NCBI GenBank assembly: GCA_025774615.1 | Contig: JALGVQ010000027.1 | Span: 1 to 18,463 of the forward strand | Origin: a bacterium | Lineage (GTDB): Bacteria > Blakebacterota > Blakebacteria > Blakebacterales > Blakebacteraceae | Direction of reading: 5' to 3' | DNA length: 18,463 nucleotides | Shown: piece by piece, positions 796-17,909 of the stretch | How the letters are laid out: every line of letters starts with the position of its first letter | Numbering within the stretch: position 1 is the first letter of the stretch | Translations under genes and position numbers: made by a program | The notes under the pieces: generated by a model | Database searches by the model: none | Told to the model about the DNA's origin: nothing | Seen by the model: the letters and a program-made list of their open reading frames with translations, nothing else

Positions 796-1215
796 GTGAA
801 CAGCGGCACTTTCATCGATCTGAAAGCGATACGGAAAAAACTCGATCTCAGTCAGGCCGAGCTTGCAACCCTTATCGGTGTCTCCGAGCGGACCGTTCAG
901 AGCTGTGAACAGGGATGGAGGAATCCAGGGCAGGCGGTGGAGAAGGCGGCGATCCTCCTCCTGGTGGCGAAATGGCATGGTGCCGAGATGGAAAAACATC
1001 GTTGCTGGGAATCAATTGGTTGTACTGACGAGGAACGGTCGAATTGCCTGGTCTTTCAATCACACCAGGGTCACGTCTGCTGGCTGTTGTCGGGTAACCA
1101 GTGTCGAGGCAGGGATCTGAAAACCTGGGTGGACAAGAAAGAAGCCTGCTTCGATTGTCCCTTCTTCCTGGAACTGCTTCCTGACGGCGTTCCGATCCTC
1201 ACACCAGACGCTTGA
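796..1215 (+). CDS. XRE-family HTH regulator with C-terminal two-CW cysteine domain
   Basis: A small putative DNA-binding regulator, 139 aa from the chosen GTG start. Residues ~8-58 form a Cro/C1-type helix-turn-helix (LSQAELATLIGVSERTVQ, then E-Q-G-W-R). The C-terminal half carries a spaced cysteine pattern with two Cys-Trp pairs: CW, C, C, then CW, C and finally C-x2-C followed by P-F-F. This is the layout of the two-CW module, a probable metal- or redox-binding domain attached to bacterial signalling proteins. GTG at 796 has AGGGGA about nine bases upstream. An in-frame ATG at 772 adds eight residues but has no good ribosome site and sits inside an inverted repeat. The gene converges on the corrinoid-protein gene and their 3' ends overlap by 17 bp. 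That placement suggests, but does not prove, that it controls the methyltransferase locus. Confidence 0.82.
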   Translation: MNSGTFIDLKAIRKKLDLSQAELATLIGVSERTVQSCEQGWRNPGQAVEKAAILLLVAKWHGAEMEKHRCWESIGCTDEERSNCLVFQSHQGHVCWLLSGNQCRGRDLKTWVDKKEACFDCPFFLELLPDGVPILTPDA

Positions 1216-1828
1216 CGAGCTCCACCGCACTCAGACCATCGAAGCCGTAGCCGACCGCCCCGATCTGGTTCGCGAAATCCTCAGAGACAGGAGCTCCACC
1301 GACAATGGAGTGGATCTCACCGCGAAGACCCTCCTGCTCCAGCCGTTCGATCGTCTGACCCATGCTGGACATCGTGGTCGTCAAGAGGGCTGACATCCCG
1401 ATCACCTGAGCCTCCTCCTCCAGAGCAGTCGTCACGAATGCCTCCGGAGAGACATCGTTGCCGAGATCGATCACCTCGAAACCGGCACCTCTGAGCATGA
1501 TACCGACGAGATTCTTCCCGATGTCATGGAGGTCACCCTGGATGGTTCCGATGACCACCTTCCCGCGGGAGGCTGCACCCGAGGCTGCAAGCAACGGCTC
1601 GATACGGTCGAGCCCTGCGTACATGGCTCGAGCCGCCAGAAGCACCTCCGGCAGGAATATCTCATGGATCCTGAATCGCTCTCCGATGACATCCATTCCC
1701 GCGATCAATCCGTCATCGAGGATCACCTGTGGATCGAGCTGCTTGTCGAGAGCTTCCGCAGTGAGGAGTGAGACCGCGTCATTGTCTCCGCGCTGAAGGG
1801 ATTCCGATATCCGGGTCACGAGGTCCAT
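1199..1828 (-). CDS. Methyltransferase cognate corrinoid protein (MttC/MtbC family)
   Basis: A 209-aa B12-binding methyl carrier, the usual length for this family. The N-terminal ~85 residues are the helical cap (LIAGMDVIGERF and FLPEVLLAARAMYAGL are typical). The C-terminal part is the Rossmann-like cobalamin domain with the D-x-H-x2-G signature G-D-L-H-D-I-G-K-N at 98-106; His101 should be the lower cobalt ligand. GMSALLTTTM (144-153) and GGAPVSEDFANQIGA (177-191) are further family landmarks. It should accept a methyl group from the adjacent MttB-like enzyme and pass it to a second methyltransferase not encoded here. ATG at 1828 is preceded by GGAG at nine bases. It lies downstream of the methyltransferase gene, 80 bp apart, with a strong hairpin between them. 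The expected location is the cytoplasm. Confidence 0.93.
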   Translation of the reverse strand: MDLVTRISESLQRGDNDAVSLLTAEALDKQLDPQVILDDGLIAGMDVIGERFRIHEIFLPEVLLAARAMYAGLDRIEPLLAASGAASRGKVVIGTIQGDLHDIGKNLVGIMLRGAGFEVIDLGNDVSPEAFVTTALEEEAQVIGMSALLTTTMSSMGQTIERLEQEGLRGEIHSIVGGAPVSEDFANQIGAVGYGFDGLSAVELVKRLV

Positions 1829-1846
1829 AGGGTCCGTCTCCGTAAC

Positions 1847-1887
1847 GGATCGATCCTGGCGTCCGGGATCAGGACGCCGGTCGATCC
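1847..1887 (-). promoter_or_regulatory. Intercistronic hairpin between methyltransferase and corrinoid-protein genes
   Basis: GGATCGA (1847-1853) pairs with TCGATCC (1881-1887), and GGCGTCC (1858-1864) pairs with GGACGCC (1872-1878). They are separated by a small internal loop, and the terminal loop is 7 nt. No T-run follows it on the minus strand, so a terminator is unlikely. A processing or stabilising element that sets different levels of the two proteins is plausible. Confidence 0.5.
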
Positions 1888-1908
1888 TTGATGATGTACA
1901 CTCTTTCG

Positions 1909-3366
1909 CTACTCCCGATCCGGGAGTCTGTCCAATCCGAATTTCCGGGCTGCCTCTTCCATCAACTGAACCAGCTCCTTCTCCTCCATCTCACCGAGTC
2001 CGGTGGGTTCCCAGTCGGTGATCTTCTGTTCGACTTCCCGGTGGGCCCGTTCACCGAGTGTCAGACTGCCTTCCTCCTGCCACCTGGATCGATTGGCTCG
2101 ATCGATGACAGGAGTGGGGAAATAGTGCTCCTCACGCAGATTGGTGAGAGTATGGTCGGAGATCAGAAGATGTCCATCTCTGAGCAGTTCCTCGAAGATC
2201 GGAAGTGCCGGGAAGTCGCCCCGTGGTTCGATCCCACGAGCAAGTCGGAAGACAAGCCCGCAGATATCATTGTCGAGTACGAGTTTCTCAAGGCTTTGAC
2301 AGCTCTCGAAATCGAGCATGCCGGGTCCGGAGACATTATTGATGCCTGCCAGGACCGAAAGGGTCGCGCCCATGGAAGTCTCAAGACCTGCCTGGGCGTC
2401 CAGGAGTTTGGCGTCGCTCAGAGCGCTATAGGCCTGTGTCGGCAAGCCGAGGTGTTTACCGATCTCGCTACACGCGCAGTCGATCATCTGGGTCTCGATC
2501 GCACCCATCGGAGTGGTCTCATACCGGACATCGAACGCGGCCGGAGAGCCGCCCCAGAGGGCCGGCGCACCGGGATTCCTCAGCTGGGTGAGTGCTACTC
2601 CACTCAGGGTCTCTGCGGTATGCTGCACCAGGGTCCCGACGATTGTCACTGGTGATATGAAACCGGTCAACGGCATCGAGATATATTCGACAGGGATGGA
2701 GTGATCAGCGCAGTCGAGCAGATTCTGTGATGTCACATCACTCCATTTAAGCGGGGCAGTGGGGCAGACCGAGAAGATCGTGAGCGGTTTCTCCTTCAGA
2801 TGCTCCTTCGATCCCCGTACAGCGATCTGCATATCCTTCATCAACTCGAACGACTCGATCGTGAAGGCTCCTGTCACGACCGGTTTCGAACAGTAGAGAA
2901 GGCTGAGAAAGAGGCGATAAGCGTCAGTCACTTCATCGGGGACATCGGTGGGTATGAAGGCCGTACTCTGAGAAGCGATGTTATCCATAGATGACATGAG
3001 TCTGGCATATCGGACGTAATCTCCGGTCACCGGCTTCCTCATCGTCCCCGTTTCATGGTCGAGAATGTTTATCGCCGCAGATCCGGGAGTGAAATACACG
3101 TTCTCACCCGAGAGATCGTGGGTCTCCTCACCGTTCACGTCATAGAGCCTGAAACCGGGAAGCGCGGTAGAGAGGGCGCGATCGATGATCTCATCGGTGA
3201 ACCATGCATGGTGTGCCCCGGAGTCCACTCGGGCACCGTGATCCGAGAGGAGTTTCAGAGCCTGTTGATTGTGGATCTCCATCCCGAGGGTGCCCAGGAC
3301 ATCCCTGGCTTCGGAGATGATTCGCTCGATCAGATCTTTTTCGAGGAATCTCAGTTGAGGTCGCAC
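1909..3366 (-). CDS. MttB-superfamily (trimethylamine/betaine) corrinoid methyltransferase, non-pyrrolysine
   Basis: A 485-aa TIM-barrel methyltransferase of the MttB superfamily (COG5598). It should transfer a methyl group from a quaternary or tertiary amine to the corrinoid protein encoded just downstream. The frame is continuous, with no internal TAG, so it lacks the pyrrolysine of true trimethylamine methyltransferases and belongs with MtgB-type glycine betaine enzymes and relatives. Family landmarks include FTPGSAAINILDHETG, the AFTIESFELMKDM stretch, SVCPTAPLKW and the glycine-rich ALWGGSPAAFDVRYETTPMG segment. The start is GTG at 3366 with AGGAG nine bases upstream. The terminal stop is TAG, but the protein is already full length there. 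The divergent neighbour is an AdiC-like transporter, suggesting the substrate is imported. The exact substrate (glycine betaine, proline betaine, carnitine, methylated amino acid) cannot be read from sequence alone. Confidence 0.9.
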   Translation of the reverse strand: MRPQLRFLEKDLIERIISEARDVLGTLGMEIHNQQALKLLSDHGARVDSGAHHAWFTDEIIDRALSTALPGFRLYDVNGEETHDLSGENVYFTPGSAAINILDHETGTMRKPVTGDYVRYARLMSSMDNIASQSTAFIPTDVPDEVTDAYRLFLSLLYCSKPVVTGAFTIESFELMKDMQIAVRGSKEHLKEKPLTIFSVCPTAPLKWSDVTSQNLLDCADHSIPVEYISMPLTGFISPVTIVGTLVQHTAETLSGVALTQLRNPGAPALWGGSPAAFDVRYETTPMGAIETQMIDCACSEIGKHLGLPTQAYSALSDAKLLDAQAGLETSMGATLSVLAGINNVSGPGMLDFESCQSLEKLVLDNDICGLVFRLARGIEPRGDFPALPIFEELLRDGHLLISDHTLTNLREEHYFPTPVIDRANRSRWQEEGSLTLGERAHREVEQKITDWEPTGLGEMEEKELVQLMEEAARKFGLDRLPDRE

Positions 3367-3448
3367 GATTCCAGACTCCTGTTTCAGTGCTGTGCCAGTC
3401 GCATAACGACCGCCACACTACTCCCAATCCCGATGTACTGACAAATCC

Positions 3449-3477
3449 TTCTCGATAGGACGATCTGCCACTATGAT
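3449..3477 (+). promoter_or_regulatory. Possible promoter of the APC transporter gene in the divergent intergenic region
   Basis: TTCTCG (3449-3454), 17 bp, then TATGAT (3472-3477). The -10 is good and the -35 is weak. The 136-bp region between the divergent starts at 3366 and 3503 must hold both promoters. I could not identify a convincing one for the methyltransferase side, nor a clear shared palindrome. Confidence 0.3.
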
Positions 3478-3502
3478 GGTGTCCGCTGCGGGGAGATGAG
3501 CC

Positions 3503-4825
3503 ATGGAACGGAGAACATTGGGATTCTGGATGTGCACGGCACTCGTGGTCGGCAACATGATCGGCTCGGGTGTCTTTCTTCTGCCTGCCTCCCTCGCTCC
3601 TTACGGCGGCATCAGTATCGTCGGCTGGGTGATCACCGCCGTCGGCGCGATGCTGCTCGCACTCGTCTTCGCCCGTCTGAGTCGACTGGTACCGAAGGCG
3701 GGTGGACCGTATGCGTACACGCGGTATGGATTTGGGGACTTCGCCGCCTTTCTGGTCGCATGGGGGTACTGGATCTCGATCTGGGCAGGGAACGCGGCGA
3801 TATCGATCGCTTTCACCGGGTATCTGGGAGTATTCCTGCCCAGCATTACCAGGAGCGCCATTCTCTCGGCCGGGACCGCCCTCACGGCGGTCTGGTTCCT
3901 GACCTGGGTCAACAGCAGGGGAGTGAGGAATGCCGGGATCGTCCAGGTTGTTGCGACAGCGCTGAAGCTCGTGCCGCTGGCCGCGGTCGGTATCCTCGGT
4001 CTCCTCTATCTGAGGGTTGAGAATTTCATGCCCTTCAACCAGAGCGGCGGTTCCGGATTCTCGGCGATCACCGCGACCGCCACCCTTACCCTCTGGGCCT
4101 TTCTGGGACTCGAATCCGCCACGATCCCTTCCGGGGAAGTAAAAGACCCCGGAAGGACGATCCCCCGGGCAACAATCGTCGGCACGTTGTTGACGGCAAT
4201 CATCTACATCCTGGGGACCGTAGCCGTGATGGGTGTGATCCCTCCGGAGATCCTCGCCACATCGACCGCTCCCTTCGCTGACGCGGCCAGTCTGATGTGG
4301 GGTGGGTGGGCCGCTTATGCCGTTGCGGCAGGCGCCGCGATCTCCTGTTTCGGAGCTCTCAACGGCTGGATACTCCTGCAGGGACAGCTCCCCCTGGCCG
4401 TTGAAGCTGATGGCCTCTTTCCACGGCTGTTCGGTCGACTCGGAAGCAGGGGTACACCGACAGCGGGTCTTATCGTATCGAGTCTGTTGATAACAATCCT
4501 GGTCGGCATGAACTTCACCAGAAGTCTGGTAGAGCTCTATACCTTCATTATCCTGCTCGCCACACTCACCACCCTGATACCCTATATTTTCTCAACGGCA
4601 GCAGAATTGCTCATCTTTTTTCGGGAACGTGAACGGTTTGAAGGCAGGAGGATGTGGGGTGCTGCAACCATCGCCATTCTGGCTCTCGCCTATTCACTCT
4701 GGGCGATCACCGGCATCGGGAAGGAGGCCCTGATCTGGGGAGCCCTGTTACTCCTTGGTGGTGTCCCGGTGTATCTCTTCCTTGGCAGATCCCGCAGGTC
4801 CATCGATTCCGAACAGACAGGTTGA
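3503..4825 (+). CDS. AdiC-like APC superfamily amino acid/amine transporter
   Basis: A 440-aa inner-membrane transporter with about 12 hydrophobic segments, the length and pattern of the basic amino acid/polyamine antiporter group (AdiC, PotE, CadB). By recall-based comparison with E. coli AdiC, the residues known to shape its pocket line up at a constant offset of four: G-N-M-I-G-S-G (17-23, helix 1 break), Tyr89, Asn97, Trp198, Glu204 and Trp289 match AdiC Tyr93, Asn101, Trp202, Glu208 and Trp293. AdiC Ala96 and Cys97 are replaced by Ser92 and Ile93, so the substrate may differ from arginine/agmatine. GGGGAG lies seven bases before ATG 3503. The gene is divergent from the MttB-like gene, so it may import the methylated substrate or exchange it for its demethylated product. 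Its stop codon lies in the first unit of a 35-bp tandem repeat. Confidence 0.9.
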   Translation: MERRTLGFWMCTALVVGNMIGSGVFLLPASLAPYGGISIVGWVITAVGAMLLALVFARLSRLVPKAGGPYAYTRYGFGDFAAFLVAWGYWISIWAGNAAISIAFTGYLGVFLPSITRSAILSAGTALTAVWFLTWVNSRGVRNAGIVQVVATALKLVPLAAVGILGLLYLRVENFMPFNQSGGSGFSAITATATLTLWAFLGLESATIPSGEVKDPGRTIPRATIVGTLLTAIIYILGTVAVMGVIPPEILATSTAPFADAASLMWGGWAAYAVAAGAAISCFGALNGWILLQGQLPLAVEADGLFPRLFGRLGSRGTPTAGLIVSSLLITILVGMNFTRSLVELYTFIILLATLTTLIPYIFSTAAELLIFFRERERFEGRRMWGAATIAILALAYSLWAITGIGKEALIWGALLLLGGVPVYLFLGRSRRSIDSEQTG

Positions 4826-10213: not shown

Positions 10214-11329
10214 ATGAATATTCACCGATATCTGCTTCCACAGATCCTGAAGGATCTGGAAAAGAAGATGGTCTTTGTGAGCGGCCCTCGGCAGGTCGGG
10301 AAAACCACCCTTGCCCTGTCAATCCCCGGTGGCAGTCGCGTATATCTGAACTGGGATATCACCGAGGACAGAGAGCGGATTCTCAAACGCGAACTCCCGG
10401 TGGGGACTCTCTGGATCTTCGACGAGATCCATAAGTACCGTGGCTGGCGGAACTGGTTGAAGGGAATGTATGATGGCCGCCCGGATGGACAGCGGATTCT
10501 TGTTACCGGCTCAGCCCGGCTTGATTTCTACCACTATTCCGGTGATTCACTCCAGGGACGGTACCACCACCTCCGCCTTCATCCACTCACCGTTGCGGAA
10601 TTGGGAATAACCGGAAGTGAGGGATTGCAGGAACTGCTGCAGTTGGGAGGTTTCCCAGAGCCGTTCTTCAGCAGCTCTGACCTCGAAGCCCGCCGCTGGT
10701 CACGCGAGTATCGGAATCTGCTCATCAGGGAAGAGTTAACGAGCCTCGAGCGGGTCGATGACCTTGGCCGATACGAGCTTCTCATGCTGAGATTGCCCGA
10801 GCTGGTCGGCTCGCTTCTATCCGTCAACGCACTGCGTGAAGATCTCCAGTTGAGTCACAAGACTGTTGAACGCTGGATCAGCATCCTCGAACGTCTCTAT
10901 GCGATCTTCAGACTGCCTCCTATTGGTTCGCCGCAGATTCGAGCCATTCGCAAGGCTCAGAAACACTACCATTTTGACTGGAGTCTGGTGGATGATGCCC
11001 CGGCCCGTTTCGAGAACCTCGTCGCCGTCCACCTGCTCAAATGGGTGCACTACCAGCAGGATACACAGGGCCTCGACTTCGAGTTGCGATATTTCAGGGA
11101 CACCGATGGGCGTGAGGTGGATTTTGTAATTGTCGAGAAGCAGGTACCCCGCTACCTCGTCGAGTGTAAATGGAACGACGCTCCACCTGACCGCGGCCTG
11201 CGCTATCTCAAAACCCGGTTCCCGGATGCTGTCGCCTGGCAGATCTCGGCGACAGGGAACAAGGACTATCAGACCCCGGGAGGAATCCGGGTTGCCCCGG
11301 CGGTGGAATTCCTGAAAACACTGGTTTGA
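10214..11329 (+). CDS. AAA+ ATPase with DUF4143 domain
   Basis: A 371-aa stand-alone ATPase of a widespread family of unknown role, found patchily across bacteria and archaea. It has Walker A G-P-R-Q-V-G-K-T-T (24-32), Walker B L-W-I-F-D-E-I-H (66-73) and a sensor-like I-L-V-T-G-S-A-R (95-102). Residues ~197-237 look like a winged helix. The C-terminal DUF4143 region contains R-E-V-D-F-V-I and L-V-E-C-K-W (Asp303, Glu317, Lys319), a PD-(D/E)xK nuclease-like signature. I chose ATG 10214 because the LLPQILKDL opening is typical and because the longer frame from TTG 10178 starts inside the -35 box. Neighbours on both sides are on the opposite strand, and a bidirectional terminator follows, so this is a solitary, probably mobile-by-descent gene. 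Defence-like or toxin-related roles have been suggested for relatives but nothing here shows one. Confidence 0.92.
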   Translation: MNIHRYLLPQILKDLEKKMVFVSGPRQVGKTTLALSIPGGSRVYLNWDITEDRERILKRELPVGTLWIFDEIHKYRGWRNWLKGMYDGRPDGQRILVTGSARLDFYHYSGDSLQGRYHHLRLHPLTVAELGITGSEGLQELLQLGGFPEPFFSSSDLEARRWSREYRNLLIREELTSLERVDDLGRYELLMLRLPELVGSLLSVNALREDLQLSHKTVERWISILERLYAIFRLPPIGSPQIRAIRKAQKHYHFDWSLVDDAPARFENLVAVHLLKWVHYQQDTQGLDFELRYFRDTDGREVDFVIVEKQVPRYLVECKWNDAPPDRGLRYLKTRFPDAVAWQISATGNKDYQTPGGIRVAPAVEFLKTLV

Positions 11330-11331
11330 CG

Positions 11332-11367
11332 AAAAAGCCCCGACTCCATCAGGAACCGGGGCCTTTT
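11332..11367. terminator. Bidirectional rho-independent terminator
   Basis: GCCCCG (11337-11342) pairs with CGGGGC (11357-11362), with a short inner TCC/GGA pairing. The stem is flanked by an A-run (11332-11336) and a T-run (11364-11367), giving a U-tract on both strands. It lies between the stops of the converging ATPase (11329) and flavoprotein (11385) genes and can serve both. Confidence 0.8.
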
Positions 11368-11384
11368 ACAGACTGTTGAGGATA

Positions 11385-12371
11385 CTACCAGGAGTAGAGT
11401 GTCTTCATGTAGTTCGCGCGCTCGAAAGCAGCGGGGTCGGCCACTGATTTCATGCACAGACATCCCTTCATCTGTTCGAGCGACTCATACTCCTTCTCTT
11501 CCATCCACCGGGTCAGATTCTCAAGAACGGTACTCAGATATGAGTTACCATTCGTCAGAAGAGAACCGGTCATCTGGGTGATATCGGCACCCGCCATGAT
11601 CATCTTCAGAACATCCTCATGGGTGTGAATGCCCTGTGAAGCAGCAAGGCTGGCTCCGATCTGTCCGCGGAGGATCGCGATCCAGCGCAGACTCGTCCTG
11701 TTCGCGTATTGAGTGCTCATCACCAGGTCAGGCTTCACCTCGAGCGTTTCCAGGTCGATATCGGGCTGGTAGAAGCGGTTGAAGAGCACGATTGCGTCGG
11801 CGCCATCATCATCGAGTCGCTTGGCCATATTCGCCAGTGCGCTGAAGTAAGGGCCGATCTTCACCGCGATCGGCTTCTTCATGGCGAGTTTCGTCTCCTG
11901 CAGGATGCTCGAATAGATTGTCTCAATCGCGCCGCTGGTCATCTCTGTGCCGGTTGCCAGGAAGTAGATGTTCAGCTCGATCGCGTCCGCGCCGGCCTGG
12001 ACCATCAGTTGCGAATAATCGACCCACCCGCCGGTCGTGATGCCGTTGAGGCTCGCGATAACCGGGATATCGACCGCTTCCTTCACCTTCCGGATGTGCT
12101 CCAGATACGATTCCGGACCGATGAATCCTTCTTCGAAATTGGGGAAGTAGGTGAGGGCTTCGGGGAATGACTCGGTACCTTCGAGCATACGCCGTGAGAG
12201 TTCTTCACTCTCATGCATGATCTGTTCCTGGAAGAGGGAAGGGAGAACGAGAGCAGCCGCTCCGGCGTCCTCCAGCTGCTTGCAGCTCTCAACATCCGCG
12301 GTGAGAGGTGAAGCGCCGGGAACGAGCGGATTGCTCAGGTTCAGCCCCATGTATGAAGTCTTCAGGTCCAT
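11385..12371 (-). CDS. Dihydroorotate dehydrogenase-like flavoprotein
   Basis: A 328-aa FMN-type TIM-barrel protein of the dihydroorotate-dehydrogenase-like group that is commonly found beside pyruvate:ferredoxin oxidoreductase. Landmarks are the N-terminal LGLNL-like sequence MGLNLSNPLVPGASPL, VIASLNGITTGGWVDY, GADAIELNIYF, P-I-A-V-K-I-G-P (phosphate/FMN-side strand) and the C-terminal MTGSLLTNG region. I do not see the catalytic Cys or the N-K-P-N-x-x-D context of true class 1A enzymes, so de novo pyrimidine synthesis should not be assumed; an electron-transfer or unknown oxidoreductase role is possible. GAGGAG lies seven bases before ATG 12371. It starts 45 bp after the PFOR stop, so the two are almost surely one operon. 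A terminator follows its stop. Confidence 0.88.
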   Translation of the reverse strand: MDLKTSYMGLNLSNPLVPGASPLTADVESCKQLEDAGAAALVLPSLFQEQIMHESEELSRRMLEGTESFPEALTYFPNFEEGFIGPESYLEHIRKVKEAVDIPVIASLNGITTGGWVDYSQLMVQAGADAIELNIYFLATGTEMTSGAIETIYSSILQETKLAMKKPIAVKIGPYFSALANMAKRLDDDGADAIVLFNRFYQPDIDLETLEVKPDLVMSTQYANRTSLRWIAILRGQIGASLAASQGIHTHEDVLKMIMAGADITQMTGSLLTNGNSYLSTVLENLTRWMEEKEYESLEQMKGCLCMKSVADPAAFERANYMKTLYSW

Positions 12372-16070: not shown

Positions 16071-17861
16071 TCAGTCGCCGGGAATGGATGAAAACGGGCC
16101 AGATCTGTTCAGTGGATGTGGCGCGTAATCGTCGCCGTACCGTTGCTGCATTTCAAGCAGTCTCTCACGGATTCTTTCAGGGCCCATGTTGCGCGCCGCG
16201 CCGATAACTCCACCACGGAATGAAGGACCGCCAAGGACGAATACATCGAGGATCGACCAGCTCTCTTCCACCGGGTCGTCCACCGATTCCCAGTTCCTGC
16301 TCACGGTGAGGAGAAGCGCGGAGACCACCTCTTCGATCAGGCGCTCTTCGGCTTCTTTCCCCGTGTTGACGGTCATTCCTGATTCAGTGAGAGGATCGGG
16401 ATCAGGGCCGGATGAGTTCCTGGCCTCATCGGGTGATTTCCAGGCGCCACCGGATGATTTCACGACCTGACCCCAGGCGTCACCCCAGACTTCACCAAGG
16501 GAGAGGGAAAGCGCGTGCGGACCCTTGACCATACCCCATTTCTCAAGGATCTCATCGATCTGTTCCGTGCTCCACCCCTCTGCTGCAAGTCGTTCCCCTT
16601 CAAGAAGATACGTCGTGATGAGACTCAGACCGGGTGAAGATTCAGGATTTCGGCAGTAGACCGGGGAACCACCGGCTTCGACAACGAATCGACGGGCGAG
16701 ATCCTGGAAGAGGTCGGGACTATCGGATTCCACCCATGCCACTTCGATCGTCACGGGCGGTACGGCGAGTGGAAGCCGACGCAGGAGACCGTAGCCACCG
16801 GGTACCTTGATCGCAGGAACAATCCGCGATGGAGAGGGCAGGTCGTCGGGGGCAGTGGATCTCATCCGGTTCCTGAGGGATGCCCTCAACTCTTCCGGCA
16901 GGGTGAGGTCCGCGGTCAGATCGACCGGAGCGCCACCTTCTGTATTCTTCCCACGCGGGCGTCGCATCGCCTGCCGGCAGCGCAGGAGTCGCAGCAGATG
17001 AGGGTGGACATCACCGGCGATCAGGTCGGCGAGCATGCCGGCTTCCCGCTCGAGTCCTTCAGCAAGAGGTATCCGGTCGGCGCTCAGCCCCACCGCCTGG
17101 ATGGCCGACTCAGGGGCGGGGTGATGTCCCCCGGTCTTGCGCCGTACAACCCGCTGGTAGCGCTCCCGCACCATGCGGCGCCCTCGCCGTGTTTTCTCCA
17201 GCATCCGGTCGGTAAGCCCGGGCCGGGAGAGGGGGGAGAGCCTGGCACGCCGACCTTCTCCAAGATCGAGGACCATCTGGACCGCTTCCTCCCTGAGCAT
17301 GGCGGGTTCGACAAGCCTGTCGATAAGCCCCTGCTCGAACGCCTGCCGTGCAGGAATCGGCCCTCCGGTGAGGATCATGTTGAGAGCGTGCTGCTGACCG
17401 ATCAACCGGGGCAGGCGCTGAGTGCCGCCGAATCCGGGGATGATGCCCAGCAATATCTCGGGGAGCGTGAGAGTCGTGGCAGGTGTGTCAGCGGCGATCC
17501 GGGCGTCGCATGCCAGTGCGAGTTCAGTACCGCCGCCGATGCATCTACCCTCGATAGCCGCGACTACAGGGCAGGGCAGATCGGTGAATCGCTGAAAGAG
17601 GAGCTGGATCGCGCGGGAAGATTCATAAGCTTCCTCCCGTGACGCGACGTCGGTCATGTGTTCAAGGTCGACGCCGGCCTGGAAGTCACCACCCTCGGGT
17701 CCGGTGAAGATGATACCTGCCGGTGGATTCCCGGCTGCCTCATCGGCGAGTGCCCGCATCGAATCGAAAATGGCAGGTGTCATGGTGGGTGGACGCCTGC
17801 CGTCGGAGATGAACTCGGCCACGATGATGCCCGAGTCGCTGCGGGTAACAGAGAGTTCCAT
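16071..17861 (-). CDS. FadJ-like enoyl-CoA hydratase with degenerate 3-hydroxyacyl-CoA dehydrogenase half
   Basis: A 596-aa protein (numbered from ATG 17861) shaped like the beta-oxidation multienzyme FadB/FadJ (usually ~715 aa) but shortened. Residues ~1-190 are a crotonase domain with both catalytic glutamates: Glu113 in I-G-G-G-T-E and Glu135 in T-L-P-E, plus IIPGFGGTQRLPRLIG. A basic linker follows (to ~345). Where an NAD-binding Rossmann fold with a G-x-G-x-x-G motif is expected there is none. The text resumes at the LPLAVPPVTIEVAW segment and the GWSTEQIDEILEKWGMVKGP helix typical of the dehydrogenase half, and ends with G-G-P-S-F-R-G-G-V. So the hydratase is probably active and the dehydrogenase is not. 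The start is uncertain: TTG 17897 would add 12 residues. It is probably co-transcribed with PFOR, 75 bp downstream. Confidence 0.85.
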   Translation of the reverse strand: MELSVTRSDSGIIVAEFISDGRRPPTMTPAIFDSMRALADEAAGNPPAGIIFTGPEGGDFQAGVDLEHMTDVASREEAYESSRAIQLLFQRFTDLPCPVVAAIEGRCIGGGTELALACDARIAADTPATTLTLPEILLGIIPGFGGTQRLPRLIGQQHALNMILTGGPIPARQAFEQGLIDRLVEPAMLREEAVQMVLDLGEGRRARLSPLSRPGLTDRMLEKTRRGRRMVRERYQRVVRRKTGGHHPAPESAIQAVGLSADRIPLAEGLEREAGMLADLIAGDVHPHLLRLLRCRQAMRRPRGKNTEGGAPVDLTADLTLPEELRASLRNRMRSTAPDDLPSPSRIVPAIKVPGGYGLLRRLPLAVPPVTIEVAWVESDSPDLFQDLARRFVVEAGGSPVYCRNPESSPGLSLITTYLLEGERLAAEGWSTEQIDEILEKWGMVKGPHALSLSLGEVWGDAWGQVVKSSGGAWKSPDEARNSSGPDPDPLTESGMTVNTGKEAEERLIEEVVSALLLTVSRNWESVDDPVEESWSILDVFVLGGPSFRGGVIGAARNMGPERIRERLLEMQQRYGDDYAPHPLNRSGPFSSIPGD

Positions 17862-17909
17862 GTCCGCATCAAAGCGGGTCAGGAACTCTCCGGTCAATCA
17901 GGTTCTGAC

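Follow-up and report, generated by a model that had tools for sequence, protein, structure and literature searches.

The stretch of DNA analyzed here (the window, 18,463 nucleotides) is contig C274 of genome G000, a 3.3-Mb assembly in 324 contigs that is 82% complete. On its minus strand, a predicted non-pyrrolysine methyltransferase of the MttB superfamily (MttB, positions 1909 to 3366; PF06253, 248 bits, and clade alignment) is followed in the same direction by a corrinoid protein gene (COR, 1199 to 1828; PF02607 and PF02310). By synteny, the 80-nucleotide gap between the two (1829 to 1908, minus strand) is the slot that a gene called ACT here occupies in most relatives. Two plus-strand genes flank the pair: an AdiC-like antiporter of the APC superfamily (3503 to 4825), divergent from MttB across 136 bp, and a protein with an Xre-type HTH and a two-CW domain (772 to 1215), convergent with COR and overlapping it by 17 nucleotides. 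The transporter matched the arginine/agmatine antiporter model with 353 bits, a score that does not reach the cutoff of 574; the regulator scored 30.8 bits against HTH_3 and 33.1 bits against the two-CW model, the latter slightly below the cutoff of 35. All four genes reported in the initial annotation were thus recovered by profile matches, and the same four-gene arrangement was observed in G001, the only same-genus genome searched. Elsewhere in the window, a 608-amino-acid protein (16071 to 17897, minus strand) combines an N-terminal half resembling the FadJ crotonase with a C-terminal half that was assigned to no family.

MttB is present in a single copy in G000. As had been claimed, it is not a pyrrolysine enzyme: Leu316 aligns with Pyl334 of the pyrrolysine-containing MttB, and the frame is open with no in-frame TAG. 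The Rfam family PYLIS_3 (RF02510) nevertheless scored above its cutoff at 2322 to 2421 on the minus strand, inside this TAG-free gene, and in a search of about 45 loci its matches lay in coding sequence. They do not signify pyrrolysine, because the frames carry Leu; the family follows the coding sequence of mttB and not the use of pyrrolysine. The window protein shares the superfamily, the barrel, and the non-pyrrolysine character of MtgB from Desulfitobacterium hafniense (2QNE, 9YCE). Unlike a close MtgB relative, however, it is 28% identical to MtgB (and likewise 28% identical to pyrrolysine MttB), and no MtgA or RamA partner was found for it. Four residues have been proposed to bind glycine betaine in MtgB, namely Y94, N199, R309, and H345 (PMC6855144). 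These positions are occupied by Ser96, Cys201, Gln311, and Ser346 in the window protein and are nearly invariant in its clade; Glu354, at the position of MtgB F353, is invariant. Since all four proposed residues are replaced, MtgB-type glycine betaine specificity was rejected, and alignment suggests that the donor of this clade is probably not bound as in MtgB. The pocket could not be read from the AlphaFold model of MttB, whose confidence was low (pLDDT 72, and below 50 in the pocket loops). The initial annotation was right to treat MttB and COR as a functional pair with an unassigned substrate.

Named bacterial and archaeal genomes were scanned, yielding 80 loci of the MttB clade (64 to 84% identical over the whole length), which was monophyletic with a local support of 0.66. 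The clade spans about 15 mostly uncultured phyla, including WOR-3/Stahlbacteria, Fermentibacteria/Aegiribacteria, Aminicenantes, Acidobacteria, Eisenbacteria, Zixibacteria, TA06, Cloacimonadota, Neomarinimicrobiota, KSB1, Planctomycetota, and Bacteroidetes. We counted operons by ORF clustering and tblastn at the 54 clade loci whose downstream sequence exceeded 3.5 kb. At 45 of these, MttB, ACT, COR, and a homocysteine methyltransferase gene (HMT) shared a strand, mostly in this order, and the gap between MttB and ACT had a median of 9 bp; at the other nine, at least one partner was missing nearby. No conserved fifth gene or general transporter was detected beside the operon across about 70 loci, and no SAM, SAH, or cobalamin riboswitch was found near it in about 45 loci. 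Of the 45 genomes with an MttB match, 43 carried one copy, and RACo was not found in 40 of 46 genomes. Two WOR-3 loci (L065 and L071) carry the operon without ACT, and the genome of the first (G158) encodes a RACo-type activase on another contig, which suggests that ACT and the RACo-type activase can replace one another as the reactivase. A class V aminotransferase or cysteine desulfurase-like gene adjoins the operon in Aminicenantes, Acidobacteria, and Planctomycetota, upstream of MttB at L062, L068, and L078 and downstream at L059 and L067. Outside the clade, ACT and HMT stay beside MttB in G004 and G079, whereas a locus in G060 (L029; G060:C1:589000-608900) encodes a distant MttB relative, COR, and HMT, with a Pterin_bind protein lying between the MttB relative and HMT. 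Compared with one another, these loci may represent steps leading from folate-linked systems to folate-free ones.

Three of the proteins encoded by the operon resemble modules of MetH. COR comprises a helical cap and a B12-binding Rossmann domain with an intact GDLHDIG motif, the DxHxxG of MetH-type B12 modules; its best solved relatives are 1y80 and MttC (7xcn). ACT belongs to PF02965, the MetH activation domain (36.5 bits for the G000 copy; cutoff, 25), and its profile finds Thermotoga TM0269 (1j6r). The ACT model (pLDDT 91) likewise retrieved 1j6r at an E value of 1e-11, with MetH activation domains as the only strong matches. Alignment of 20 diverse ACT sequences revealed four invariant cysteines, C164 within PGYCGW and a C220-x2-C223-x4-C228 set. 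The aligned stretch of 1j6r lacks C164, and the alignment stops before the C-terminal cysteines. This pattern suggests a putative site for a metal or an Fe-S cluster, which might assist in the reduction of Co(II). HMT belongs to PF02574; its closest counterpart is the homocysteine module of MetH (6.5e-67 for T. maritima MetH), with BHMT far behind (8.4e-30), and all three zinc cysteines (GSNCG, GGCCGT) are kept in the G000 copy and in its relatives.

The initial annotation had placed the missing partners of the window pair elsewhere in the genome. Their location was predicted correctly; their identity as a corrinoid:pterin methyltransferase and RamA was not, and ACT and HMT were found instead. 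On contig C151 of G000, the sole ACT gene of the genome (at about 10314 to 11036, plus strand; equivalent to L138:6315-7037) adjoins the sole HMT gene (11078 to 11959, plus strand). The same pair is present in G001 (C176), where HMT (L139:7353-8339) is apparently frameshifted near its end, reflecting either an assembly error in this draft genome or decay. In G003, which is from the same family, HMT, COR, ACT, and MttB form one block, with MttB cut by the contig end. Given the adjacency of ACT and HMT on C151 and the intact block in G003, the operon in the window's genus is split into MttB-COR and ACT-HMT rather than incomplete. Within the 82% of the genome that G000 represents, no RamA/RACo activase, corrinoid:pterin methyltransferase, MetE, or MTHFR was found. 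The methyl-folate-binding module of MetH (PF00809) is absent from the operon; G000 has DHPS only, its sole Pterin_bind protein being of the DHPS form associated with folate synthesis.

We next profiled the methionine synthase genes of about 50 genomes carrying the clade or its relatives. The operon HMT was the only clear MetH-type homocysteine methyltransferase in eight of them (G101, G154, G161, G162, G163, G166, G168, and G169), and no MetE, folate-type MetH, MTHFR, or pterin methyltransferase was detected besides the operon in these eight. G101 is rated 100% complete, and three others (G161, G166, and G168) are each a chromosome in one contig; genomes accessed by way of named contigs carry no completeness rating. 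A Pterin_bind protein was present in seven of the eight; on inspection every one showed DHPS motifs, and TIGR01496 confirmed three of them as DHPS. The 1.1-Mb assembly of G163 had none. The MetE-type core barrel (PF01717) was absent from G000 and the eight genomes in a search that may miss the MesC type, the M. acetivorans control having given no match. Full-length, high-scoring PF01053 enzymes were encoded by six of the eight genomes, consistent with putative homocysteine synthesis in these organisms. The three WOR-3 chromosomes (G161, G166, and G168; L153 to L156) also encode a PF02574 protein (about 305 amino acids) that is divergent and keeps GGCCG. The window organism itself may differ: full-length MetH occurs in the same-family genomes G002 and G003, and pieces of MetH occur in G001. 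The absence of MetH was therefore rejected as proof for this organism, in which the MttB system may be a second route to methionine.

Taking the operon together with these gene complements, we propose that MttB and COR probably form the half of a B12-dependent methionine synthase through which methyl groups enter. The enzyme would be modular and independent of folate, with MttB in the position of the MetH folate module. MttB would bind an N-methylated compound and pass its methyl group to Co(I) on COR; the resulting methyl-Co(III) COR would dock with HMT, the MetH-type zinc enzyme, which would methylate homocysteine to yield methionine. When Co(I) is oxidized, ACT, with its MetH-type AdoMet-binding reactivation fold, would restore it by reductive methylation. 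The gene content, the conservation of the operon, the domain assignments, the catalytic motifs, the split in G000, and the failure to detect folate or RamA-type partners are observations; we infer which way the methyl group moves, that its donor is an N-methyl compound, the reactivation chemistry, and the possible Fe-S cluster of ACT. Against this proposal, full dependence on a scavenged N-methyl donor would be unusual for an essential amino acid. The MetH genes of the window's family, the nine loci without a full set of partners, and the negative riboswitch search near the operon also speak against it.

The initial annotation had favored uptake and catabolic demethylation of an N-methylated compound, in which MttB would transfer methyl groups through COR to tetrahydrofolate. 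Such a unit would have its own transporter and local regulator and would rely on a RamA-type protein for reactivation. The systems built on MtgB, MtpB, MtcB, and MtyB work in this manner, providing precedent, and a transporter and a regulator do adjoin the pair in the window and in G001. However, the pterin methyltransferase, MTHFR, and RACo expected for such a pathway were not found in G000, there is one MttB rather than several paralogs, and the conserved partners are ACT and HMT rather than the transporter and regulator. Catabolism is thus not the best reading, and we regard it as highly improbable. The MttB gene that is nearly always single copy, the lack of RACo in most genomes, and the lone operon HMT of the eight genomes fit a biosynthetic rather than a catabolic role.

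A combination of the two functions was also considered. In the MtgBCDE system of Ruegeria pomeroyi, N-methyl demethylation and methionine synthesis are joined through one corrinoid protein, and the MtgD pterin module is essential for both (PMC12478193). A hub of this type, in which COR would share methyl groups among MttB, homocysteine, and folate by way of a distant pterin module and so serve both degradation and methionine synthesis, has therefore been demonstrated, and the Pterin_bind protein between MttB and HMT in G060 recalls it. No pterin module was found, however, in the clade operon, in at least eight genomes, or in G000, where DHPS or nothing is left, making a hub very unlikely here. 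Alternatively, the MttB barrel may have switched to a donor that is no longer an N-methyl compound and is perhaps made inside the cell, the remainder still acting as a methionine synthase. Replacement of the four MtgB betaine residues, the invariant Glu354, the lack of a conserved dedicated transporter, and the apparent dependence of these genomes on the system would accord with such a switch. To our knowledge, however, all characterized MttB-superfamily enzymes use N-methyl donors, and methyl-THF is an unlikely donor because MTHFR was not found. A donor switch consequently seems unlikely, and we retain the N-methyl-dependent methionine synthase as the preferred reading.

This proposed synthase combines features of several known systems. 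MtgBCDE is the nearest precedent found, with separate MttB-family, corrinoid, and homocysteine modules. Unlike MtgBCDE, in which mtgE is often distant, the system described here has no pterin module, includes a MetH-type ACT gene, and forms a conserved four-gene operon. With MetH, and with the split MetH of Thermotoga and its TM0269, it shares a Zn-cysteine homocysteine module, a B12 module, and an AdoMet-binding reactivation fold; it differs in that an MttB barrel stands in place of the folate-binding module and all modules are separate. In the stretch that could be aligned, TM0269 (1j6r) does not show the invariant four-cysteine set of ACT. Four families of folate-independent methionine synthases, MesA to MesD, have been described, all of the MetE type, and MesA to MesC are thought to take methyl groups from corrinoid proteins (Price et al., PMC7857596). 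Our proposed system would likewise be folate independent, but its acceptor enzyme belongs to PF02574 rather than having a MetE-type barrel, and methyl groups would enter through MttB. No description of a folate-free MttB-ACT-COR-HMT operon was found in the literature searched, a set that most subscription papers lie outside; MtgBCDE was the one close precedent found.

We consider the chances about even that MttB, COR, HMT, and a reactivase, maybe with an Fe-S cluster, constitute a further class of folate-independent methionine synthase, one supplied directly by an N-methyl compound, and that members of several uncultured phyla possess no other methionine synthase. If so, methionine in these organisms would depend on scavenged or unidentified methyl donors, and the system could explain methionine synthesis in genomes of WOR-3, Zixibacteria, TA06, Cloacimonadota, and other mostly uncultured lineages in which no MetE, folate-type MetH, or MTHFR was detected. 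It would also predict that genes annotated as trimethylamine methyltransferases in such genomes are often biosynthetic rather than methylotrophic, affecting the use of mttB as a methylamine marker in metabolic reconstructions, and the modular-swap model of methionine synthase evolution would become directly testable.

The view that the four window genes form one unit held within the window's genus (window and G001) but not beyond it. Outside the genus, the transporter was linked at one Bacteroidetes locus (L104), where a homolog with 54% identity lies directly downstream of the operon, and the regulator was linked nowhere. A different APC transporter lies upstream of the operon at L106. The window transporter has the fold of the AdiC arginine/agmatine antiporter and keeps its pocket Asn, Ser, Tyr, Trp, and Glu; unlike AdiC, it has two small pocket residues changed (WLAC to WISI), as the initial annotation had noted, and scores below the family cutoff. 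The argument from this pocket for a methylated basic amino acid, resting as it does on the transporter, is weak. The transporter and regulator are best treated as lineage-specific accessories outside the conserved machine, and in the window lineage the transporter may bring in the methyl donor or serve in product exchange.
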